Positions 2,283 through 63,732 of a stretch of 64,000 nucleotides of DNA are shown in pieces. The stretch is from positions 372,001 to 436,000 of the forward strand of contig NZ_SLWR01000003.1 in assembly GCF_004345665.1 (NCBI RefSeq). Reading direction: 5' to 3'. The notes beneath the pieces are model-generated. The model was not told where the DNA came from, ran no database searches, and was given only the letters and a program-made list of their open reading frames with translations. The DNA is from Kribbella antiqua (GTDB taxonomy: Bacteria > Actinomycetota > Actinomycetes > Propionibacteriales > Kribbellaceae). Positions within the stretch are counted from its first letter, which is position 1, and the number at the start of each line of letters is the position of its first letter. The position numbers and the translations under genes were made by a program.

Positions 2283-3086
2283 ATGTTCCGTGCGGTTGCC
2301 GGACTGCTGACTGTTTTCACGCTCACCGCGTGTGCCGCTCCGATCGCGCCGGCGGACACTGCGCTGAGTCTCAGTCGCAGTACGGCGACTCGCGCCTCGG
2401 CCGCGGTTCCCGTGCGTACGGCGAAGATCGCGAGCATCCGCACCACGGACTACACCAAGGGCGTGATCACGGTGGCCGGGACATTGTCGCCGGCGCCGCG
2501 AACGGGGACCCGGATCGCGCTGCAGCAGTGGAACTCGTCGGCGAAGCGGTGGCAGGAGGTCGGCCACGGCTCGTCGTCCGGGACCAGCGTGACGATCACC
2601 ACCCGGCAGCCGGGGTCGATCCGGACGTATCGGATCGCCGTCGCCGCACAGGCGCCGTACGCGAGTGCTGCCTCGCCGGGGATCAGCTTCAAGCATTTCG
2701 TGTGGCGAGGGATCTTCAAGAGAGGTGTGCTGGCGACGGGTGGGAAGGGCGCGCCGCAGGTCAACGTGATTCCGCCCAGTGAAGGGCCGCGGCGGGCCGA
2801 GGCGGATCTGCTGGCGAACAAGGGCGGGTTCGTCTGGGTCGACGTCGATGCGACCGGCTGCAGCTGGGTGCGGAACTGGTTCGGCAACCTGACCGACGGG
2901 ACCGTGCGGCTCTCACTGCACGACGGGCGTACGACGCTGGCGTCGGTGCGGATGGCGCAGGAGACCGAGACCTGGCTCAACCACAAGATCCTCGGCGTCA
3001 GCCGGTTGCGCTTGCAGCTCGCCGACATCAAATCCGGCTACGGCCCCTACGTCGCCGTCGACTCCATGATGCTCTGCACGAACTAA
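2283..3086 (+). CDS. Putative secreted lipoprotein of unknown function
   Basis: The 267-residue product starts with a short hydrophobic signal peptide ending in the lipobox LTAC with the lipidated cysteine at residue 17, so it is probably anchored to the outer face of the membrane. I prefer ATG 2283, which has GGGGAG 7 bases upstream, over the in-frame GTG at 2259. The mature part looks all-beta: an Ig-like stretch at about residues 40-125, then a C-terminal segment containing VWVDVDATGC and a final conserved-looking cysteine. I do not recognise the family with confidence. The stop lies only 10 bases before nuoA, so the two may be co-transcribed, which puts a lipoprotein at the head of the nuo set. 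Confidence 0.75.
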   Translation: MFRAVAGLLTVFTLTACAAPIAPADTALSLSRSTATRASAAVPVRTAKIASIRTTDYTKGVITVAGTLSPAPRTGTRIALQQWNSSAKRWQEVGHGSSSGTSVTITTRQPGSIRTYRIAVAAQAPYASAASPGISFKHFVWRGIFKRGVLATGGKGAPQVNVIPPSEGPRRAEADLLANKGGFVWVDVDATGCSWVRNWFGNLTDGTVRLSLHDGRTTLASVRMAQETETWLNHKILGVSRLRLQLADIKSGYGPYVAVDSMMLCTN

Positions 3087-3096
3087 GCTGTTGTTC

Positions 3097-3453
3097 GTGT
3101 CGGAGAGCTACGGAGTCGTCGCGGCGGTCGTCGTACTGGGGCTGCTCGGACTCATCGGTGCCTTCGCGCTGAACAAGGCGCTGACCGTCACGTACCCGAC
3201 CGAGGGCAAGCTCAAGACCTACGAGTCCGGCGTCGACCCGGTCGGCGAAGGCTGGGCGCAGGTCCACATCCGCTACTACCTGTTCGCCTACCTCTACGTG
3301 ATCTTCGCCGTCGACGCGATCTACCTCTTCCCCTGGGCCACCATCTTCGCGGCCCTCGGCTTCGCCACCCTCATCGAAATGTTCGTCTTCCTCGCCTTCG
3401 TCGCCGTAGGCCTCCTCTACGCCTGGCGCAAAGACGTCCTCCGCTGGACCTGA
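3097..3453 (+). CDS. nuoA: NADH-quinone oxidoreductase subunit A homologue (NuoA)
   Basis: This 118-residue protein has three membrane helices and the NuoA loop YESGVDPVGEGWAQ followed by RYYLFAYLYVIF, so it is the small subunit next to the quinone channel of complex I. The GTG at 3097 is my start; TTG 3091 is in frame but a poorer choice, and neither has a clear ribosome binding site. In E. coli NuoA the second helix carries an FDxE motif with two functional acids. Here the motif reads FAVD, so the first acid is alanine (residue 71) and the second is Asp instead of Glu (residue 73). The rest of the complex lies 10 kb or more downstream, and an 84-bp cruciform repeat follows the gene at once. 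Confidence 0.93.
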   Translation: MSESYGVVAAVVVLGLLGLIGAFALNKALTVTYPTEGKLKTYESGVDPVGEGWAQVHIRYYLFAYLYVIFAVDAIYLFPWATIFAALGFATLIEMFVFLAFVAVGLLYAWRKDVLRWT

Positions 3454-6403: not shown

Positions 6404-9319
6404 CTAATCCAACAGGCCGTCGCGACGGGCCACGGCGGCGGCTTCGGTGCGGGAGCGGACGCCGAGTTTGGCCAGGATGTTGGAGACGTGGACGCTGACC
6501 GTCTTCTCGCTGATGTACAGCTCCCGAGCAAGCTGCCGGTTGGTCCGGCCCTCGGCAAGCAGCCGCAACACCTCGGTCTCGCGAGACGTCAGGCTCCCCG
6601 CGCCACCACCGCTCTCGACCCCGCCGCTCTCGTCAAGCAGCGGCTTCGACGCCAGCTCCCGGCCAACCTCTGCGGCAAGAGCGGCTTGCTCGTTGGCCTC
6701 CGCGACCCGCCCCGCCGCCCGCAGCGCAGCGGACAACCGCACCCGCGACCACGCCTGCTCGAACAGGTAGCCGTAGCCAAAAGCGTCGACCGTCCGCTCC
6801 CACGTCGCCACGTGCTCCTCCGGCGTCGGCGGATCGATGCCGACCAGCCACCGGAGCCGCTCCCACTCCGCCTCCAGCCGCGCCAGCCAGGCGAGACCCT
6901 CGACGCCCATCAACCGCCCAGGCGGCAGACCCTTCTCTGCCGTCGCCTGCCCAGCCGCGAGCAGCTCAGCGCCCCGAGCGAGCAGCTCTGAAGCCGCGGA
7001 CGGCTCACCCACCGCCCGGTGACACAGCACCTGCATCCCCAGCGCCGAGAACCGAACCCGCGCCATGAACCATTCAGTCTGGAAAACATCCGCACACAAC
7101 GCCGACACATCGGCCAGCAGCTTCTCGGCCTCGGCCGGCTGATCCAGCTGCCGATAGGCGTCCACCGCCGGCTGCAGCCCGATGATCGGCAGCATGATGT
7201 CGAGGTCCCACCACTTGCGCAGCCGCTCCAGCTCCTCCGCGACCGCGGTGTCACCCCGCCCACTCCGTACGGCGAACTCGACCGCCTTCAGCGCCGCCGC
7301 GGCAGCCGCGGGGGTCATCGAGTCCGTCCGGGCAGTCGCGGCGGCTTCGTCCCACTCACCGAGGATGAACTGCGTCAACGCGAGCATCCGCCGCGAGTCG
7401 AAGCCATACGCCGCCCACTGCCGCCCCAGCTCGCCCGCCCGCTTGGTGGCAAAAGCCAGCGCCGACTTTGCGTTGACCAGATCCCCCTGCTCGTAGTGCG
7501 TCGACCCGAGCAAGAACCGGCTCCGCACCTCCGCAGCTGGATCTCCGGTCAACTGCGCCCGTACGGCGGCCTCCTCCAGCTGCTTCGCCGCGGTCTCCGG
7601 GTCACCGGCCCGGCGGCGGAGCTGAGCCAGCGTGATTCCGGCGTCGCCTGCCGCAGACTCCTGCCCGGCCTCGCGGGCGATCTCCAGCGCCTTGTGCGCC
7701 CAGCGCTCCGCCTCCATCGGGCGACCGATCGCGTCGGACACTCGCGCGTACAGCGAGGCGACGTGCGCCTTGAAGACGCTGGCCGGTTCGTCGTTGACCA
7801 GTTTGAGCGCTTGCGTGATCGCCTCGCTCGCCTCTTTGTCCTGGTCGATGACCAGGGCGATATCGGCCAGCGGCAGCAGCAGCTGCGCTCGCTCCTTCTT
7901 GGGCGCGTCCGGCGGCAGCTCGGCCAGTGCCTTGCGGAGGATCTTGACCGCCCGCAGGTGCTGGGACGACAGCGTGGCCGCGGTCGCGGTCTGGACGATC
8001 AGCCAGGTCTTGTCGATAGCGCTCTCGGCCGACCGGTTCGGGAACAGCTCCAGGGCCAGCTCGTAGTGCTTCAGCGCCTCCTGCGGCGCCGCGACCGAGA
8101 TCGCTTCCTCGCCGGCCCGCACTCGCGCCTCGAACGCCTCGGGCAGGTTGTGCGATCGCGTGGCGTGCCCGGCGAGCTCAGCCGCCGTACCGGCGACCGT
8201 CTGGTCCTTCAGCGCCTGCACGTACGCCGCGTGCTGACGAACTCGCTCGCCCGGCAGCAGATCGTCGTACACGGCCTCGGCCAGCAGCGCGTGGCGGAAG
8301 TAGTACCGATCGCTGGTCGGTACGTCGATGATGTGGGCGTCGATGAGCTCGCGCAGAGCGTCGTCGAGCTCGCGGTCGGGCAGCCCGGCGACGGCGGTGA
8401 GCAGGTCGTGCGGGACGCGCCGGCCCGCGACCGCGATCACGCGGGCGACCTGCCGGGCCTCGTCCGACAGTGGATCGAGCCGGACCAGCAGCAGATCGGC
8501 CAGATCCGGCGGTACGGCGTCGCCGTCGCCCATCGAGGCCGCGGCGACCAGCTCCTCGGTGAAGAATGCGTTGCCGCCTGCGCGCTCGAGGATGCGCCGT
8601 ACTTCGGTCTCCGGCAGCGGCTCGGTGAGCAGGGAGTTCAGCAGGACGCGGGACTCGTCGGCGTCCAGGGGGAGCAGGTTCACCCTTCGTACGCGCGGGT
8701 TGCGGGACCACTCGGCGATTGGGCGGCGGAGCGGATGCCGCCGGTGCAGGTCGTCGCTGCGGTAGGAGACGATCAGGGTGAGGCGCTGCGAGGTGAGCCG
8801 GGTGATCAGGAAACCGATCAGGTCCCGGGTCGAGTCGTCGGCCCAGTGGGCGTCCTCGATGATCACCAGCAACGGCTCGCTGGTCGACAGCGCGGTGAAC
8901 GCCCCGAGCACGGCGTCGAACAGGGCGGCCCGGTCGAGCTGACCGTCCTGCGGCACGGGCTGGGCGCCGATCAGGCGGTGCGTCGGCAGCAGGCGGCCGA
9001 TCGCCGGGAAGTTGGTCAGGACGCTCTCGACCAGATCGGGCCGGTCGCCGGCCAGCCGGCCGAAGATCTCGGAGAACGCCAGGTACGGCAGGCCGGCGTC
9101 GCCGAAGTTGCTGCAGTGACCGACCAGCACGCCGAATCCGCGCTCGTGCGCGCCGGTCGCCACCTCGTCCAGCAACCGGGTCTTGCCGACGCCGGCGTCA
9201 CCGGACAGCAGTACGGCGCCGGCGCGACGCGTTTTGGCGTCGTCGACGGCGCTGAGCAGGGCGGCCATCTCGGTCGAGCGGCCGACGAGAGGTGTCGAAG
9301 TCCAGGGCACGTCGTCCAT
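6404..9319 (-). CDS. LAL-type LuxR family transcriptional regulator with AAA/STAND ATPase
   Basis: The 971-residue product has the large ATP-binding LuxR (LAL) layout. An N-terminal ATPase carries Walker A GDAGVGKT at 40-47 and Walker [13 protein letters not shown] near 165. A long TPR-like helical middle follows, and a LuxR helix-turn-helix fills the last 65 residues ([33 protein letters not shown]). I place the start at ATG 9319, which has an AGGGGCG ribosome binding site. The in-frame ATG at 9436 would read through a terminator hairpin. In the family, ligand and ATP binding gate DNA binding at a nearby target operon. The closest upstream genes are the three microproteins at 9433-10190, but no target site is evident. 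Confidence 0.88.
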
Positions 9320-9384
9320 CTTCGCCCCTGGCGCCGACACAAATCGACGGCATCCCGCCCGGCGGTCGCCGGCGGCAATGAAAA

Positions 9385-9422
9385 CGCCGTTCCTGACCGG
9401 TGCTATCGGTACAGGAACGGCG
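9385..9422 (-). terminator. Rho-independent terminator after the microprotein genes
   Basis: An 11-bp perfect stem (CGCCGTTCCTG and CAGGAACGGCG) with extra ACCG/CGGT pairing in the loop is followed on the minus strand by TTTTCATT. It ends transcription of the microprotein pair just after the stop at 9433, and it argues that the LAL gene starts downstream at 9319. Confidence 0.7.
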
Positions 9423-9432
9423 GTTTCGGTGG

Positions 9433-9594
9433 TCATGCTGCGGTGGTGGGTCGGAGGGCCCGGCGAGCGTGCCGCGGTTCAGGCTTGGGGGCCCGCTCCG
9501 CCTGCTCCTGGCGCGGCTTGGCGCGGTACTCGCGCTTGATCCGCTCCTGCCGGTAGGCGGTCTCCGCCTTGATCGAGTCTGGTGTCATGAACAT
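9433..9594 (-). CDS. Microprotein, tandem paralogue C (53 residues)
   Basis: This short gene has a strong ribosome binding site, GGGGAGG, 8 bases before the ATG. It encodes a basic 53-residue peptide starting [11 protein letters not shown]. Residues 9-24 share the pattern [QK]AE-x2-YR-x-[DE]-R-[IL]-x-R-[DE]-[FY] with the two other small genes just upstream, so the three are tandem duplicates. The conserved part should form one amphipathic helix; the tail is rich in Arg, Pro and Ala. It starts 15 bases after the stop of copy B, so the two are one transcript, closed by the hairpin at 9385. No known family is recognised and no function is proposed. Confidence 0.7.
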
Positions 9595-9609
9595 GGTGTC
9601 TGCCTCCCC

Positions 9610-9744
9610 TCAGGCTTTCCGGCCGAACAGGTGGACGAGGTGCCGGCGGGTTCCGGTGCTCCGGGTGGGCCGGCGGAAGTCACGGCTGAGGCGCTCCCTG
9701 CGGTAGTCGACCTCTGCCTTGACTGCCTCAGTGGTGGTGAACAT
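9610..9744 (-). CDS. Microprotein, tandem paralogue B (44 residues)
   Basis: The 44-residue basic peptide starts MFTTTEAVKAE and contains the shared core YRRERLSRDFRRP. Its ribosome binding site AGGAGG lies 8 bases upstream of ATG 9744, far better than for the longer in-frame ORF that begins at 9819. The 42-bp block at 9794-9835 upstream is shared with copy A, so promoter and gene were duplicated together. It is probably co-transcribed with copy C. The tail differs from the other two, ending in HLFGRKA. Confidence 0.7.
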   Translation of the reverse strand: MFTTTEAVKAEVDYRRERLSRDFRRPTRSTGTRRHLVHLFGRKA

Positions 9745-9793
9745 TTCGGTTTCCTCCTGGTTGGTGCCGGCTCCCTGCCGACATCCATCAATC

Positions 9794-9835
9794 TGCTCGT
9801 CTGAGGTAGCCCCGCACATCGGAAGTCCTCCCTAT
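9794..9835 (-). promoter_or_regulatory. Conserved 42-bp upstream block of microprotein B
   Basis: The block matches 10225-10266, upstream of microprotein A, at roughly 70 percent of positions with equal length. Both begin TGCTCG on the plus strand and end CTCCCTAT (ATAGGGAG on the coding strand). A shared promoter or regulator site is the simplest reading. Confidence 0.5.
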
Positions 9836-9966
9836 CCCTGCTCCCTAGGTGGCCTCAGCTGGTCCTAAGGGGGTCCGGTACGCCGCTAGGTAGTCGGCGC
9901 CCGGTGGTCCGGGAAGCCGGCGAGGTGGTCTGGGCAGCCGGCGCCGCGGTGGTCCGGAAAGACGGA

Positions 9967-10001
9967 GGCGCGGCCGGCTCGGAGGGTGAGCCGGCCGCGC
10001 C
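9967..10001 (-). terminator. GC-rich hairpin after microprotein A
   Basis: A perfect 14-bp stem (GGCGCGGCCGGCTC and its complement) with a 7-base loop lies 30 bases after the stop of copy A. No real T-tract follows, so termination without Rho is uncertain, but the stem is very stable and separates copy A from copy B. Confidence 0.55.
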
Positions 10002-10031
10002 GGGGGTGGGGGTCGGGTGGTGCTCTGGCAC

Positions 10032-10190
10032 TCACATCGCGGGACGAGCGCGGAGCTCAGGGGCGCAAGGCTCGGGAGCCTCCCGCTTGGGCTTGCGCTG
10101 GAACCACAGCGGGCGCTGGAAGTCGCGCTTGATGCGGTCCTGGCGGTACTTGATCTCAGCCTGGACGGAGGCGGTTGAGTAGATGAACAT
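10032..10190 (-). CDS. Microprotein, tandem paralogue A (52 residues)
   Basis: The 52-residue basic peptide starts MFIYSTASVQAE and carries the shared core YRQDRIKRDFQRP, then a Lys/Arg/Pro-rich tail. I take ATG 10190, where the other copies also start with Met-Phe and where GGAGGAG lies just upstream (spacing short, about 4 bases). The longer in-frame ORF from 10256 runs through the block shared with copy B and is unlikely. It forms its own transcript between its upstream block and the GC-rich hairpin. Function unknown. Confidence 0.68.
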   Translation of the reverse strand: MFIYSTASVQAEIKYRQDRIKRDFQRPLWFQRKPKREAPEPCAPELRARPAM

Positions 10191-10224
10191 GATCTCCTCC
10201 GGGAGCTTGTCGATGAGATGACAG

Positions 10225-10266
10225 TGCTCGCCTGAGGAGCCCGCCCACATCAGCACAACTCCCTAT
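10225..10266 (-). promoter_or_regulatory. Conserved 42-bp upstream block of microprotein A
   Basis: This is the partner of the block at 9794-9835: same length, same ends and shared GAGG and CACATC cores. It begins 34 bases before the start of copy A, where a promoter would be expected. Confidence 0.5.
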
Positions 10267-10317
10267 GCCGCCACCCCCACCCCCTTACCCCGTCACCCCG
10301 GGTGGGCAGACGGTTGC

Positions 10318-11031
10318 CTAGGGCATCGAGCCGTACGTGAGGCTGAGTTCGAAGTGGTCGGGGTCCAGGAGGTCTTCGGCCTGCTCGGCGAAGCGGTCGT
10401 CCGCGGTCCAGCTGGTCCGCCGGGTGTGCAGGAACCAAGTGCCTTCCGGACGCCTCAGCAGCTCGGCCTCGCCCGCATCCAGCGGACGGCCGCGGAGGTG
10501 TTGCTCGCAGTGATGGACGTGCAACCCGGCGCTGTGCAGAGTCCTTGTGATCGAGCCGTTCTCGAGTCCGCGCTCGGGCAGGTCGCGGAGCGAATCCAGG
10601 GCGGGGATCCGGCTGCGTTCGAGGGAGATCGCCGCGCCGTCCGCGAGCTGCCGCACCCGTTCGATGACGATCACGTCCGGCGATTCGAGCCCAAGCCGAT
10701 CGGCGAGTGCGGAGTCCTGCTCCAGCGCGATCTTCAGCGTCCGCATCCGCGTCTCGACACCCTGCTCGGCCAGTGCGTGGGTCCAGCCGAGCCGGCTGTC
10801 GAGCGGCCGGCCGTCGTACAGGACGAACGATCCCTTGCCGGTGCGGGTGGTGATCAGACCGTCCTCGGACAGTACGGCGAGTGCGGAGCGGACCGTGTTG
10901 CGGCTGACCGCGAAGCGCTTGGCCAGTTCGACCTCACCCGGCAGTTGCGCGCCGCGCCGTACGAGGCCGGAACGGATTTCCCGGGCCAGGACCGCCGCGA
11001 TGCGTTCGTGCTTCAGTGAGATCTCGGGCAT
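10318..11031 (-). CDS. GntR family transcriptional regulator, HutC/UTRA subfamily
   Basis: The 237-residue protein has an N-terminal GntR winged helix (LPGEVELAKRFAVSRNTVRSA near residues 30-50, then GLITTRTGKGSFV) and a C-terminal UTRA ligand domain (from about residue 75). It is the last gene of a three-gene minus-strand operon, 7 bases after the isochorismatase-family gene and downstream of the NCS1 permease. It therefore probably autoregulates that operon in response to the imported compound. The start at 11031 is the only reasonable one. Confidence 0.88.
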   Translation of the reverse strand: MPEISLKHERIAAVLAREIRSGLVRRGAQLPGEVELAKRFAVSRNTVRSALAVLSEDGLITTRTGKGSFVLYDGRPLDSRLGWTHALAEQGVETRMRTLKIALEQDSALADRLGLESPDVIVIERVRQLADGAAISLERSRIPALDSLRDLPERGLENGSITRTLHSAGLHVHHCEQHLRGRPLDAGEAELLRRPEGTWFLHTRRTSWTADDRFAEQAEDLLDPDHFELSLTYGSMP

Positions 11032-11038
11032 CGGCGGC

Positions 11039-11578
11039 TCACTGGTTCAGCTCGCGGATCTGGTCGACCGTGACGACCTCCAGCATCGGCGAGTACAGCC
11101 GCATGATGTCGATCGCCTTCCGGTGACTGGCCTCGTCCGAGCCGGTGCATGCGTCCTCGACCACCTGAACGTAGATCCCGGCATCGACCGCGGCCAACGC
11201 GGTGGAGATCACGCAGCAATCCGTGGTCACGCCGGCCAGCACCAGGTGTCCGCCGATCCCGACCTTGCCGGCCAGCTCGGAACCCCAAGCGCCGAAGGTC
11301 GTCTTGTCCAGCGTTGGAGCGCCCTTGAACTCGTCGACGAGCTGGTAGTCGTCCGCGTCCGGTGGCTGCAGCGCGAACGGATACTGCTCGTAGTAGGTCT
11401 TCCACGCGCCGACCGGCTCGGCCGGCGCCACGAACCTTGTGAACACGACCTGCGGCGAGAGGATCTCGATCAATTCCTTGGTCGGTTTGATCACCCGCTG
11501 GAAGTCCGGCGCCGCCCAGCCCGAGCCCGGGTTGGCGAAGATCCGCTGCAAGTCGATCAACGCGAGTACGGGTGCCAT
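11039..11578 (-). CDS. Isochorismatase-family cysteine hydrolase
   Basis: The 179-residue product is a cysteine hydrolase of the isochorismatase/nicotinamidase superfamily. The catalytic triad is visible as Asp9 (ALIDLQ), Lys92 (LDKTTFGAW) and Cys122 (GVTTDCCVISTA). The family hydrolyses amides or ureido compounds such as nicotinamide, N-carbamoylsarcosine and ureidoacrylate. Location between an NCS1 nucleobase/hydantoin-type permease and a GntR regulator suggests a catabolic amidohydrolase for the imported N-heterocycle or its product. ATG 11578 overlaps the permease stop (TGATG) and has an AGGAGG site. The larger upstream ORF in this frame is a shadow of the permease. Confidence 0.88.
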   Translation of the reverse strand: MAPVLALIDLQRIFANPGSGWAAPDFQRVIKPTKELIEILSPQVVFTRFVAPAEPVGAWKTYYEQYPFALQPPDADDYQLVDEFKGAPTLDKTTFGAWGSELAGKVGIGGHLVLAGVTTDCCVISTALAAVDAGIYVQVVEDACTGSDEASHRKAIDIMRLYSPMLEVVTVDQIRELNQ

Positions 11579-13035
11579 CACACCTCCTGCTTCCGTACTG
11601 CGGACGCGCCACCAGCCAGCTGTACGACGAACCCGGCCACCAGCGCGACGAGAATGCCGAGGTTCGCGTAGGCCCAGGCGCCGTCCTTGCCGCCGAGGCC
11701 GAGCGGCCCCAGCAAGTAGCCCTGCCAGGTCAGCCAGGACGCGAGGGTGTTCGTGACCAGGCCCCAACCGATGCCGGTGGCAACGAGCATCGTGAGTACC
11801 GGCAGCCAGCGCACATCGCCGTACCGGCCGCGCGGGTCGTAGAGATCGGCCTCGGCGTAGTTGCGCCGCCGGGTCGCGATGTCGGCCAGCATGATGCCGC
11901 ACCAGGCCGCGATCGGGACGCCGAGCGTGATCAGGAAGCCCTGGAACTGCGTGAGGAACTCGCCGCCGTAGAAGACCACGTAGATGGTGCCCGCGATCAT
12001 CACGACGCCATCGATGAACGCGGCAACGAACCGTTTGACCGGCAGGCCGAGCGACAGCAGGGCAAGGCCGGACGAGTAGATGTCGAGTACGGCGCCGCCG
12101 ACCAGTCCGAGCACGGCGACGATCACGAACGGCACCAGGAACCAGGTCGGCAACGCCGCCGCCAGCGCGCCGATCGGGTCACCGCCGATGGCCTTGCTGA
12201 GATCCTCCGACGAGCCGGCCAACAGCAGGCCGAAGAAGAGCAGTACGACGGGTGCGAGGGACGCGCCGAACGTCGTCCAGCCAACGACACCGGAGCTGGA
12301 CGACTGGCGTGGGAGGTAGCGCGAGTAGTCCGCCGCGACGTTGACCCAGCCGAGGCCGAAGCCCGTCATCAGGAACACGAGCGTGCCGATCACCTGCTGG
12401 GTCGAGCCGCCCGGCAGCGCCGACACCGTGCTCCAGTGGATTCGGTCGGCCACCAGGACGATGTAGACGACGGTCAGCACACCGGTGACGACCGTGATGA
12501 TCGCCTGGGCCCGCATGATCAGGTCGAACCCGAGGACGCCGCAGGCAACGATCAGTACGCCGACCACGACCAGCGCGACCACCTTCGTCACATCGCCGCC
12601 ACCCCAGCCGAGCCGATCGAACACCGCCGCGGTCGCCAGCGTCGCCAGGATCGTCAGCACCGTCTCCCAGCCGACGGTCAGCACCCACGACACCAGCGAC
12701 GGCAGTTTGTTGCCCCGGACACCGAACGCTGCCCGGCTCAGCACCATCGTCGGCGCCGAACCGCGCTTGCCGGCCAGCGCGACCAGACCGCAGAGCAGGA
12801 ACGAGAACACGACACCGATCAGCCCGGCGATCAACGCCTGCCAGAACGAGATGCCGAAGCCGAGCGCGAACGCGCCGTAGCTCAGGCCGAGGACCGAGAC
12901 GTTCGCCCCGAACCACGGCCAGAACAACTGGCTGGGCCGGCCCTTCCGCTCCGCGTCCGCGATCACGTTCAGCCCGTTGCTCTCCACCGCGAGCGCCCGG
13001 GACTCCGGCCCCCATACCTCAAGCTGATCGGCCAT
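11578..13035 (-). CDS. NCS1 family nucleobase:cation symporter
   Basis: This 485-residue membrane protein has about 12 helices and the NCS1 (cytosine/purine/uracil/thiamine/allantoin permease) hallmarks: an N-terminal LFWPWFGANVSVLGLSYG and a central DYSRYLPR loop. NCS1 proteins import nucleobases, allantoin, hydantoins or related N-heterocycles with a cation. ATG 13035 (MADQLEVWGPES) has GGAG 7 bases upstream and fits the family length. It heads the operon with the isochorismatase-family enzyme and GntR regulator. The substrate cannot be named from sequence. Confidence 0.88.
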   Translation of the reverse strand: MADQLEVWGPESRALAVESNGLNVIADAERKGRPSQLFWPWFGANVSVLGLSYGAFALGFGISFWQALIAGLIGVVFSFLLCGLVALAGKRGSAPTMVLSRAAFGVRGNKLPSLVSWVLTVGWETVLTILATLATAAVFDRLGWGGGDVTKVVALVVVGVLIVACGVLGFDLIMRAQAIITVVTGVLTVVYIVLVADRIHWSTVSALPGGSTQQVIGTLVFLMTGFGLGWVNVAADYSRYLPRQSSSSGVVGWTTFGASLAPVVLLFFGLLLAGSSEDLSKAIGGDPIGALAAALPTWFLVPFVIVAVLGLVGGAVLDIYSSGLALLSLGLPVKRFVAAFIDGVVMIAGTIYVVFYGGEFLTQFQGFLITLGVPIAAWCGIMLADIATRRRNYAEADLYDPRGRYGDVRWLPVLTMLVATGIGWGLVTNTLASWLTWQGYLLGPLGLGGKDGAWAYANLGILVALVAGFVVQLAGGASAVRKQEV

Positions 13036-13120
13036 GCCGTCTCCAACCCGAATGAACCTGTCCAGTCCTGTCCACTCACGACGGTATGCCGAGGCCCATG
13101 AGTGGTCAAGAATGGGCGCC

Positions 13121-13966
13121 ATGCTTTCGAGTGCCGTGGATGGGTTCAGGCTGGTGTACGACAGGACCGGTGAAGGTCCTGCGGTGGTGCTCCTGCACGG
13201 GTGGCCGGGCGACCGGACCGACTACCGGCGGCTCGCACCACTGCTGGCCGAGCGCGGGTTCGAGGTGGTGGTGCCCGACCTGCGTGGCTTCGGTGGATCG
13301 CACCGGCAGTCGGCGGACCCCGCGCAGTACGGCGTCGACGCTCAGAGCCGGAGCGTGCTGGGACTGATCGAGGAGCTCGGGCTGGAGCGTCCGGTACTCG
13401 CGGGCTACGACATCGGCAGCCGGATCGCGCAGGGGATTGCGCGAACCCGGCCGGACCTGATCGACGGTCTGGTGATCGCGCCGCCGCTGCCGGGGATCGG
13501 GAAGCGGGTGTTCTCCGAGCATGCGCAGGCGGAGTTCTGGTACCAGGCGTTCCATCGGCTGCCGGTGATCGAGGAACTGATCGACGGGAAACCCGACGCG
13601 GTCCGCTCCTACCTGCGACACTTCTGGACGCACTGGTCCGGGCCGGGCTTCGAGCCGGAGCTGGATCACCTCGTCGAGGTCTACTCGGCGCCGGGCGCGT
13701 TCACCGCGTCGATCAACTGGTACCGGGCGGGTGCCGGTGCGGTCGCGGTGTCGGCGGCCGAGTCCGCGCCGGCGTCGTACGACCGGATCGCCGTACCGAC
13801 GGTGGTGCTGTGGCCCGAGTTCGATCCGCTGTTCCCGCGGGCGTGGTCGGATCGGCTCGACGACTTCTTCAGCGACGTACGGCTTCGGCTGGTTGACGGG
13901 GTGGGGCATTACGCGCCGCTCGAGTACCCGGAAATCCTCGCCGAGGAGATTGTCGGACTAGGCTAA
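13121..13966 (+). CDS. Alpha/beta hydrolase, epoxide hydrolase / dehalogenase type
   Basis: The 281-residue protein has an oxyanion-hole motif HGWPGD at 26-31, a nucleophile elbow AGYDIGS with Asp97 in place of serine, and a C-terminal catalytic His263 in [12 protein letters not shown]. An Asp nucleophile marks the epoxide hydrolase, haloalkane dehalogenase and haloacetate dehalogenase branch. ATG 13121 is chosen on fold grounds; it has no strong ribosome binding site, and ATG 13112 is possible. It is divergent from the permease operon, and its stop is 5 bases before nuoB, so nuoB-nuoC may be transcribed from its promoter. Confidence 0.85.
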
Positions 13967-60678: not shown

Positions 60679-63600
60679 ATGGAGGGACTGGACGCGCGCA
60701 GGCCCGCGATGGTGGGCCGCGCCAGGCCGCTGGCCGAGCTCGACGGCCTACTGGCGGCCGCCATCGAGGGCCGGGGTCGGTCCGCGGTCATCCTTGGCGA
60801 GCCGGGCATGGGCAAGACCACGCTGGCCGAGACGTTCGCGGATCGCGCCGCTGCAGCTGGTGTGACCGTCGCCTGGGGCTGGTGCTCGGCCACCGAGATG
60901 CCGCCGTTCTGGCCGTGGCGAACCATCCTGCGAGACCTCGCGCCGCAGCACCGGCTCGCCACCGATCAAGCCGCCGGTTCTCGCGCGGGCGGGTTGGATG
61001 GGCCGGGGTTGCTACGTGGCGACGCCGGCGCTCGCGCGAGGCTTTTTGTTTCGGTGATCGATGCGTTGCGGGAGATCGACCGCCCGGTCCTGCTCATTGT
61101 CGAAGACCTACATTGGGCCGACGGCGCATCGCTGTTGCTGCTTCGAACTGTCATCGACGCGCTGCCCGGCCTCCCCGTGCTCTTGGTCGCCACCTGTCGC
61201 GACGAACCGCTCGAGACCGGCGACGAGGTGCTGACCGCCGTACGGGCGCTGCCGACCGCCGTACAGCGAATTCGTCTCGAAGGGCTCGAGGTCGACGAGG
61301 TCGCGGAGCTGGTGACGGGCGTCCTGGGCAGTACAGCGGCCGACGAGATGGCCGCGATGGTCCACGGCCGCACGGGCGGAAACCCGTTCTTCGTGCGTGA
61401 GGTGTCCCGGCTGCTCGCCGCCCGGCCGGCGACGACCGGCGTGCCCGAAGGCGTCCGCGAGGTGCTGGCCCGCCGGATCGCGCGGGTGAGCCAGGACTGC
61501 CAGCGGATCCTGGAGGTCGCGGCGGTGGCAGGCGATGGCGCCGAGGTGGCTCTGATCATGGCCGTCACCGACAACCCTGCTGACGTTGTTCTCGATCTCC
61601 TCGAGGAGGCGGTCAGGGCCCGGTTGCTCACCGGCCCGCCGGTCGAGGGGCGGATCTGGTTCACCCACGCCCTGGTCCGGGAGGTGCTGGAGGCCTCGCT
61701 CGGTACGGCGCGGCGGGCTGCCCTCCATCGCGCGCTGGCCGAGCAACTCGAGACCGGAGATGCCGAAGCGGGCGAGGTCGCCCGGCACTGGTCCGCTGCC
61801 TTCGGTCCCGACGCGGCCGAGCGGGCGGCGGAGTGGGCGCTGCGGGCGGCGCGAACCGCCCGGTCGCGGATGGGGTATGAGCAGGCGGTCGGCGCCTACC
61901 GGATTGCCCTGCGTGGCAAGGAGATCGAGCGTACGAAGGTGATGCTCGAGCTGGGCGAGTCACAGATGTTCGCGGGCGACCTCGAGGGGTCCCGGCAGAC
62001 GTTCGCCCAGACCGCCGAGCTGGCCCGGGAGTCCGGCCGGGCCAGCCACTTGGCCATGGCCGCGCTCGGCATGGGCACCGGCCTGGGCGGCTTCGAGGTC
62101 CCCTTGTACGACGAGCTGCAGACACAGCTGCTCGAGGAAGCTCTGGTCGAGCTCCCGCAGCGGGACGGCGGCTTGCGTGCGGCGGTGATGGGGCGGCTCT
62201 CGCTTGCCTACGCTGGGTCGGATCGGGAGGGCGAGCGGGTCCAGCTCGCCCAGTCCGCCGTCGAGATGGCCGGTCGACTGGACGATGCGTGTGTCCAGTC
62301 GGGTGCGCTGGCGGCGTACTGCGACACGATGGCCGGGCCGGGCCAGGTCGACGAGAGGTTTGCCGCGGCCAGCCGCATGCTCGGGGTCGCCGAACGCGGC
62401 CACGATTCGCCGTGTCAGTTGCTGGCGCGCCGGCTGCGGGTAGTGGCGCTGATGGAACGCGGCGACTGGCCGGCGGTCGATGCGGAGATCGAGGCGTTCG
62501 CGCGGACGTCGGAGCGACTGATGCTGCCGCTGTACTCCTGGTACGTCCCGTTGTGGCGTGGCACGCGGGCGTTGATGTCTGGCGACTTCGAAGCGGCCGT
62601 CCGGTACGCCGATGAGGCCGAAGCGATCGGCAAGCGCGCCGGCAGTACCAACGCGTGGATGATGGTCTTCACCCTCCACATGTGGACTCACCGGACGACG
62701 GGTGTGATCCCAGCGAGCTTCGCGGCTGAGGTGGAGGCGGCCGTCAAGTCTGTGCACGAGCCACCCGTCGCGCTGGCCATGGCGGCCAGCTACTACGCCG
62801 CGGCCGGACAACTCGACAAGGCCGGGCCTTACTTCGACCGGCTGGTGGGCCGGGGCCTGGATGCGGTGGCCGATGACTGCGAGTGGCTCGAGGGGATGTG
62901 GCACGCCGGCGATGCGGCCATCGCTCTCTCCCGTGCCGATGTGGCCGAAGAGGTGGCGCGCCGGCTGGCGCCGTACGAGGACTTGTGGGTGATCGACGGC
63001 ATCGGCGGCGGTGTGATCGGGGTGACGGCGCATCTGCTCGGGCGGTTGGCGGCGTTCCTCGGCCGTACTCACGTGGCTCGGCGTCTGCTGGGAGGGGCTG
63101 TTGAGAAGTACCGCGAGTCCGGCGCGGCGCCCTGGCTCGTCAAGGCTGAGCAGGACCTGGCCGCGATCGAAGGCACTCCTGCCAGAGCATCCACCGCCAT
63201 CGAGGGCTTGTTCAAGAAGGACGGCAGGACCTGGCACCTCCGCTGGCGGGATGGCGAGGTCACCGTCCCGGACTCCAAGGGGATGCACGACCTGTCCGCG
63301 CTGCTGGCCCGGCCCGGCGAGCCGGTTCATGTGCTCGACCTGGTCGCGGCTGCCGGCGGTCCGCCGCGAGCGGCGCTCGGTGGTGACACAGGGCCGGTCC
63401 TCGACGGCGAGGCCCGGGCTGCCTACAAGCGCCGGCTGACCGAGCTCGAAACCGACATCGCCGAGGCGGACGACGAGCTGGCCAGCACGCTCACCGAGGA
63501 GCGGGACTTCCTGGTCCACGAGCTGGCGGCGGCGTACGGGCTGGGCGGTCGCGCCCGTACGACGGGAGATCCGGCCGAGCGGGCTCGCAAAGCCGTCGCC

Positions 63601-63732
63601 ATGCGCATCGCGACGGCGATCAAAGCAATCCGTGAGGTCCATCCACAGCTGGCTCGCCACCTCGAGCTGGCCGTCTCCACCGGACGGTTCTGTGTCTACC
63701 GCCCAGAGGAAGCCGTTACCTGGCACGGCTGA
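60679..63732 (+). CDS. STAND-type ATPase regulator-like protein without a LuxR domain
   Basis: The 1017-residue protein has an N-terminal AAA/STAND ATPase with Walker A GEPGMGKT at 40-47 and Walker B LLIVEDLHWADG near 150, then a long TPR-like helical region, as in LAL regulators. The last 170 residues differ: KDGRTWHLRWRDGEVTVPDSKGMHDL, a Glu-rich coiled coil and RARKAVAMRIATAIKAI, with no LuxR helix-turn-helix. This tail resembles a winged-helix-like module seen in other actinobacterial ATPases. It may bind DNA or act as a signalling hub. The next gene downstream is a methyltransferase. Confidence 0.82.
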   Translation: MEGLDARRPAMVGRARPLAELDGLLAAAIEGRGRSAVILGEPGMGKTTLAETFADRAAAAGVTVAWGWCSATEMPPFWPWRTILRDLAPQHRLATDQAAGSRAGGLDGPGLLRGDAGARARLFVSVIDALREIDRPVLLIVEDLHWADGASLLLLRTVIDALPGLPVLLVATCRDEPLETGDEVLTAVRALPTAVQRIRLEGLEVDEVAELVTGVLGSTAADEMAAMVHGRTGGNPFFVREVSRLLAARPATTGVPEGVREVLARRIARVSQDCQRILEVAAVAGDGAEVALIMAVTDNPADVVLDLLEEAVRARLLTGPPVEGRIWFTHALVREVLEASLGTARRAALHRALAEQLETGDAEAGEVARHWSAAFGPDAAERAAEWALRAARTARSRMGYEQAVGAYRIALRGKEIERTKVMLELGESQMFAGDLEGSRQTFAQTAELARESGRASHLAMAALGMGTGLGGFEVPLYDELQTQLLEEALVELPQRDGGLRAAVMGRLSLAYAGSDREGERVQLAQSAVEMAGRLDDACVQSGALAAYCDTMAGPGQVDERFAAASRMLGVAERGHDSPCQLLARRLRVVALMERGDWPAVDAEIEAFARTSERLMLPLYSWYVPLWRGTRALMSGDFEAAVRYADEAEAIGKRAGSTNAWMMVFTLHMWTHRTTGVIPASFAAEVEAAVKSVHEPPVALAMAASYYAAAGQLDKAGPYFDRLVGRGLDAVADDCEWLEGMWHAGDAAIALSRADVAEEVARRLAPYEDLWVIDGIGGGVIGVTAHLLGRLAAFLGRTHVARRLLGGAVEKYRESGAAPWLVKAEQDLAAIEGTPARASTAIEGLFKKDGRTWHLRWRDGEVTVPDSKGMHDLSALLARPGEPVHVLDLVAAAGGPPRAALGGDTGPVLDGEARAAYKRRLTELETDIAEADDELASTLTEERDFLVHELAAAYGLGGRARTTGDPAERARKAVAMRIATAIKAIREVHPQLARHLELAVSTGRFCVYRPEEAVTWHG

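Follow-up and report, generated by a model that had tools for sequence, protein, structure and literature searches.

The locus described here, in the genome of Kribbella antiqua, raises the question whether three very small open reading frames lying side by side next to the gene for a large regulator encode proteins and, if so, how they are connected to that regulator. The window, i.e. the whole stretch of DNA that was analysed, comprises 64,000 nucleotides, and all positions refer to it. MicroORF A (10032..10190, minus strand; 52 amino acids) begins with MFIYSTASVQAEIKYRQDRIKRDFQRP and has an orthologue at the matching place in Kribbella loci, microORF B (9610..9744, minus strand; 44 amino acids) begins with MFTTTEAVKAEVDYRRERLSRDFRRP and has orthologues in 20/20 fetched loci, and microORF C (9433..9594, minus strand; 53 amino acids) starts 15 nt downstream of B, an order that is kept in 20/20 fetched loci. 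An earlier note on this DNA had described the three as paralogous microproteins without a described family, and the coordinates, the strand and the codon counts (52, 44 and 53) on which it relied were confirmed. The core that it had proposed, [QK]AE-x2-YR-x-[DE]-R-[IL]-x-R-[DE]-[FY], was found in A, B and C, and Smith-Waterman alignment of the three pairs gave z-scores of 14.0, 7.5 and 11.0 against 3000 shuffles, a similarity well beyond what chance would give. No model in Pfam or NCBIfam matched A, B or C above its cut-off, so that the note's statement about families holds for these two collections; the closest Pfam match, DUF7231 for B, is sub-threshold at 14.6 bits against a cut-off of 27. 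A search of phages with B gave no match. In the host genome of 8.1 Mb, A, B and C are the only strong matches to the family.

The three Kribbella proteins carry divergent tails that are more variable than the core. AlphaFold predicts for A a single helix over residues 6-25, confident in the vicinity of the core (residues 11-20 reach a pLDDT of about 90), and a tail with little order; conserved residues lean to one face of the helix, a weak tendency (p 0.048). On reading the members of the family, no hydrophobic or signal-peptide-like stretch was visible.

When GTDB genomes were scanned, 20 loci were obtained: 19 carry the label Kribbella and the remaining one is listed as Streptomyces sp. SID13031. 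Nineteen of the 20 show the full order A-B-C-LAL; the exception, L032, starts at a contig end and A is absent from the fetched stretch. The family is present in 38/38 Kribbella genomes searched. The earlier note had asked whether relatives lack homologues, whether homologues are frameshifted and whether codons are constrained: homologues exist in this conserved order, the frames read are open and differ in length by whole codons, and constraint on the codons is evident in A and C but weak in B. Changes relative to the window sequence are concentrated at third positions in A and C, where such changes are in excess, but not in B, and the median pairwise dN/dS is 0.41 for A, 0.58 for C and 0.89 for B, i.e. 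overall only moderately below 1. Synonymous sites in B are unusually conserved (median dS 0.20 versus 0.66 for A), many codons being invariant. Within B there are also the sequences CTGAGG, AGGGAG and CCTCAG, similar to the promoter boxes described below. In total, conservation, synteny and the lack of Pfam and NCBIfam matches support the central claim of the note that these are real, unannotated, paralogous microproteins tied to the LAL gene.

The regulator itself (6404..9319, minus strand) is a protein of 971 residues with an AAA_16 domain (E 2.4e-29; the Walker A motif reads GDAGVGKT), TPR repeats (TPR_12, E 1.5e-7) and a GerE domain at residues 909-964 (E 1.7e-21). With its ATPase with Walker A motif, its C-terminal LuxR/GerE helix-turn-helix (HTH) and its large size it is a LAL regulator, and it shares with LAL/MalT-like STAND regulators the order of N-terminal AAA_16 with Walker A, TPR repeats and C-terminal GerE HTH.

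The pairing of microORF and LAL extends far beyond Kribbella. At the level of the order, 70/294 genomes match the microprotein family, and many genomes of family f3 (taken to be Nocardioides-like from kinship and sequence) encode a single version of about 38 amino acids close upstream of a LAL homologue. In a class-wide sample searched with a wider profile, 41/395 genomes match; among the 29 class-level matches outside the host genome for which flanks were available, 28 lie directly upstream of a LAL homologue and the 29th ends at a contig edge. The LALs beside these class-level microORFs are about 41-55% identical to the window LAL. For the reverse search, the upstream regions of 60 LAL matches were fetched; combining the searches from the LAL side and from the microprotein side, about 27 of the 29 best LAL matches have a microORF upstream, including a divergent one (L120) that was recognised by eye after its promoter. 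The distance from microORF to LAL varies between genomes. Some LAL orthologues have no microORF, and the LAL can therefore work without the microprotein; LALs of another branch, in the Streptomyces-like f22 genomes, have neither microORF nor promoter. Conversely, some genomes of genus g7 in family f4 (L070-L073) have related microORFs and no LAL orthologue at E 1e-30. Another upstream motif seems to be common to the microORFs of L070-L073 and to two additional Kribbella copies (L076 and L077).

Within the window, the locus is probably divided into three transcription units, (i) A, (ii) B with C and (iii) the LAL gene, because terminator-like hairpins are predicted after A (9967..10001, minus strand; -39.1 kcal/mol, z -4.2) and between C and LAL (9380..9427, minus strand; -31.0 kcal/mol, z -3.4). 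The earlier proposal of a single B-C transcript closed by a terminator directly before the LAL gene is consistent with the 15-nt gap between B and C, the hairpin at 9380-9427 and the LAL start at 9319, and the hairpin between C and LAL is kept in the other Kribbella loci that were folded (L013, L014, L016, L019 and part of L023). Conservation of the LAL start region in Kribbella suggests that the LAL gene has a promoter of its own.

Scanning for consensus promoters revealed no sigma-70 site, and a rigid block upstream of the microORFs emerged only from genome comparison. Its geometry, ATAGGG-N9-GATGTG-N8-CCTCAG-N5-(C/G)ANNNT, recurs upstream of A, upstream of B and upstream of homologues in other families, and the length of 34 nt covering TAGGG to CCTCAG is identical in 95/95 distinct blocks, though the search pattern permitted other spacings. 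The block of A (10212..10273, minus strand; block-model E 1.6e-12 in the host genome) has ATAGGG at 10266-10261, GATGTG at 10251-10246 and CCTCAG at 10237-10232, followed by a putative -10 hexamer CACTGT at 10226-10221 and a predicted transcription start near 10214 on the same strand. The block of B-C (9781..9842, minus strand; E 9.2e-14) has the same elements at 9835-9830, 9820-9815 and 9806-9801, with a putative -10 hexamer CAGATT at 9795-9790 and a predicted start near 9783, also on the minus strand. Both the exact core and the block model find it only twice in the host genome, before A and before B. In 297 genomes of the class the block model finds about one strong place per genome, almost only at the microORF-LAL locus, and in a phylum-wide sample it also matches three genomes outside the class Actinomycetes, in one of which (L294) the block is followed by a small ORF and a LAL-like gene of about 32% identity.

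Two further readings of the block were considered and rejected. TAGGGA was not accepted as the -10 element, because in the non-Kribbella set the A and the final T of the (C/G)ANNNT hexamer are invariant and this hexamer suits leaderless starts. An invariant A and T are expected of an actinobacterial -10 element. The ATG follows the hexamer by 6-7 nt in Kribbella L023 and L024 and in L115, L123 and L125, a short distance that would fit leaderless transcripts. A conserved upstream ORF, or a longer A protein starting at the ATG within GATGTG, gives an in-frame N-terminal extension in some Kribbella only, and was rejected because elsewhere this ATG is out of frame, stops at once or is not an ATG. 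Additional boxes lie outside the block: a cluster of CTNAGG/CCTAGG boxes (9843..9895, minus strand) upstream of the B-C promoter, with CCTTAG, CCTAGG and CCTAAG enriched upstream of 65 Kribbella blocks, and a TAAGGG box (10282..10287, minus strand) that precedes the TAGGGA in promoter A by 16 nt. Among the blocks compared, a T(A/G)AGGC-like box is often found about 16-17 nt before TAGGGA.

Weaker block-model matches led to a second group of LALs in f20 and f22 genomes, Streptomyces-like ones included, in which a similar promoter is followed by a different small protein (e.g. MGPELHYQIMINRVAELQEEAASHRRARQ...) and then by the LAL gene. This second type of small protein has no match above cut-off in Pfam or NCBIfam, and one small protein of each type searched against plasmids or phages gave no match. 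Because a profile-profile comparison of the two types gave no significant match, we do not claim that they are homologous. In a tree of 77 LAL N-termini, a branch with support 90/75 separates the LALs with the second type from those with AExxYR proteins, and three labels placed on the tree require 6 changes versus about 30 when shuffled. Since the second clade has an analogous promoter and small gene, the arrangement probably predates the split between the LAL clades.

The promoter has also been copied. In 9/38 Kribbella species (L281-L289) an extra copy (E from 2.5e-14 to 1.7e-3) was found, and all nine, from the sequences read, lie before a gene for an MFS transporter and/or an L-amino-acid ligase; in L286 the operon has Pfam matches to LAL_C2, ATP-grasp and MFS_1. 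The ligase of L281 starts with MFTTDSVKAEV, which corresponds to the first 11 codons of a microORF of type B, and a segment of 126 bp that runs from the promoter through the leader into these codons can be aligned to the B region of the same genome; L286 is a similar, more diverged case in which the ligase likewise begins with codons of microORF B. Because upstream region and first codons match B in L281 and L286, we conclude that the B promoter was copied before the ligase/MFS operon. The operon resembles operons of BacD-type L-amino-acid ligases with MFS transporters, and it is a side target, present in 9/38 species only and outside the window. Separately, L291 (around 3011-3435) has a partial, weaker copy, without GATGTG, before a gene of the WhiB family that encodes the motif RGRPRK at the C terminus and is WhiB7-like by eye; in L290 (around 2784, G027) an MFS-like gene is preceded by a weak partial match, and the contig has two further weak ones; and in L222 (G342:C90) promoter and microORF paralogue lie, by reading, beside an apparent GAF-type sensor kinase. 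The stretch fetched for L222 contains no LAL gene.

The microprotein family, its synteny, the promoter block, the terminator-like hairpins and the promoter copies can be read directly from the compared sequences; relative to the earlier note, the class-wide link to LALs, the rigid promoter with its predicted terminator hairpins, the analogue in a second clade and the promoter copying are new. Combining these data, we suggest that the LAL and the microproteins form one regulatory circuit, and their arrangement as a closed regulatory module is the best explanation, to which we give an even chance. In this model, the LAL, with its STAND-type ATPase, TPR sensor region and LuxR/GerE DNA-binding domain, would be made from its own separate promoter and would bind CTNAGG-type boxes in and around the block, thereby controlling A alone and B together with C. 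Control of the block by the LAL is likely, because the LAL is the sole regulator that travels with the block and because conservation is higher in its HTH than in its middle region (61 and 68% versus 37 and 39% in two distant members). The microproteins would remain intracellular; their conserved helix (AExxYRxER) would most likely be the interaction surface for the LAL, and the basic tail may touch nucleic acid or other parts of the complex. In this way the target gene's product would tune its own regulator; that the microprotein binds back to the LAL is a proposal that we make tentatively, rating it slightly short of even. In some species the promoter copies may place a ligase and/or an MFS exporter under the same signal. 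Taken as a whole, a STAND/LuxR-type LAL with a helical microprotein as dedicated target and partner, and with a rigid promoter that goes back to the ancestor of two or more LAL clades, extends beyond Actinomycetes and can be copied before other operons, may be an undescribed actinobacterial module, a possibility to which we give slightly less than an even chance. Speaking against the circuit are the g7 microORFs without a LAL orthologue, the L222 copy without a LAL, the LALs without a microORF, the two small-protein types not shown to be homologous and the moderate dN/dS.

The main alternative is that the microproteins serve as the LAL's effector output and act elsewhere, on RNA polymerase, DNA, the ribosome or the membrane, without feedback. 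We consider this unlikely, yet it has to be taken seriously: the separate, dedicated promoter and terminator, the three divergent tails in Kribbella and the copies without an adjacent LAL speak for it, and the orphan microORFs in genomes without a LAL orthologue keep this reading alive. The same promoter before ligase/MFS genes in some species points in this direction too, and argues that the regulator probably controls genes beyond a feedback peptide. On the other hand, the microgene has remained beside the LAL even between distant genomes, an argument for a direct partner, and the host genome has no other strong copy of the promoter.

Less probable still is that the promoter is read by another regulator or by an alternative sigma factor and that the LAL is a passenger. 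Binding of the LAL to the block is proposed from sequence and GATGTG in the -35 region is not a normal sigma-A -35 element, both of which leave room for another protein; however, no regulator gene other than that of the LAL accompanies the block from family to family and in two LAL clades, and a general sigma factor is unlikely because it would not give about one strong place per genome.

A leader-peptide role, in which the microORFs would be attenuators or upstream ORFs for the LAL gene and the peptides themselves dispensable, fits less well and is very improbable. The position just upstream of LAL, the short length and the strongly conserved synonymous sites of B would agree with it; the transcript that a leader would share with the LAL gene, however, appears to be interrupted by the hairpins after A and between C and LAL, and the three tandem copies, the conservation of core residues between families, a promoter-microORF copy away from any LAL and the variable distance to LAL all argue against it. 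Least probable is a secreted propeptide with the TPR region of the LAL as receptor: the TPR repeats, a small gene that adjoins the regulator and has a dedicated promoter, and tails that vary more than the core recall RRNPP pairs such as PlcR-PapR and Rgg-SHP, in which a TPR regulator lies beside a very small gene that it probably controls, but the window LAL carries a GerE HTH in a 971-residue STAND ATPase protein and is not a small Xre-type HTH regulator, the members read have no visible export signal, and the conserved part is a charged helix and not a short C-terminal mature peptide.

Returning to the closed circuit of LAL and microproteins, the known negative partners of MalT are unrelated proteins encoded elsewhere. 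To our knowledge, neither ligand nor target nor operator is known for the majority of LAL regulators in actinobacteria. With the data described here, sequence alone provides, for a whole LAL clade, a candidate operator whose elements have been mapped, a target gene dedicated to the regulator and a protein that is a candidate for its partner, and the circuit is therefore directly testable. A further gain is a protein family without annotation, which all Kribbella genomes searched and many other actinobacteria possess, and a case of promoter capture in which a regulator-linked promoter was copied before a ligase/exporter operon. The LAL papers found in the open-access literature (e.g. PMC3282765, PMC3466318) describe neither such microproteins nor a small-protein gene with its own rigid promoter beside a LAL, which, as open-access papers only, is weak evidence of absence. 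The Streptomyces coelicolor LALs SCO0877 and SCO7173, which are alike to the window LAL in regulator class and are compared here by class rather than by orthology, have pleiotropic control over the phosphate response and actinorhodin, and the passages describing this mention no small protein beside them (PMC3282765).

Elsewhere in the window, positions 60679-63732 encode another large AAA_16 protein, which has no GerE match. The microORFs are flanked on one side by the LAL gene and on the other by a GntR gene (11031-10318, minus strand), and positions 10318-13122 encode, in a row, this GntR regulator, an isochorismatase-family enzyme and a purine/cytosine-type permease. The GntR neighbour is kept in those fetched Kribbella loci that reach that far.
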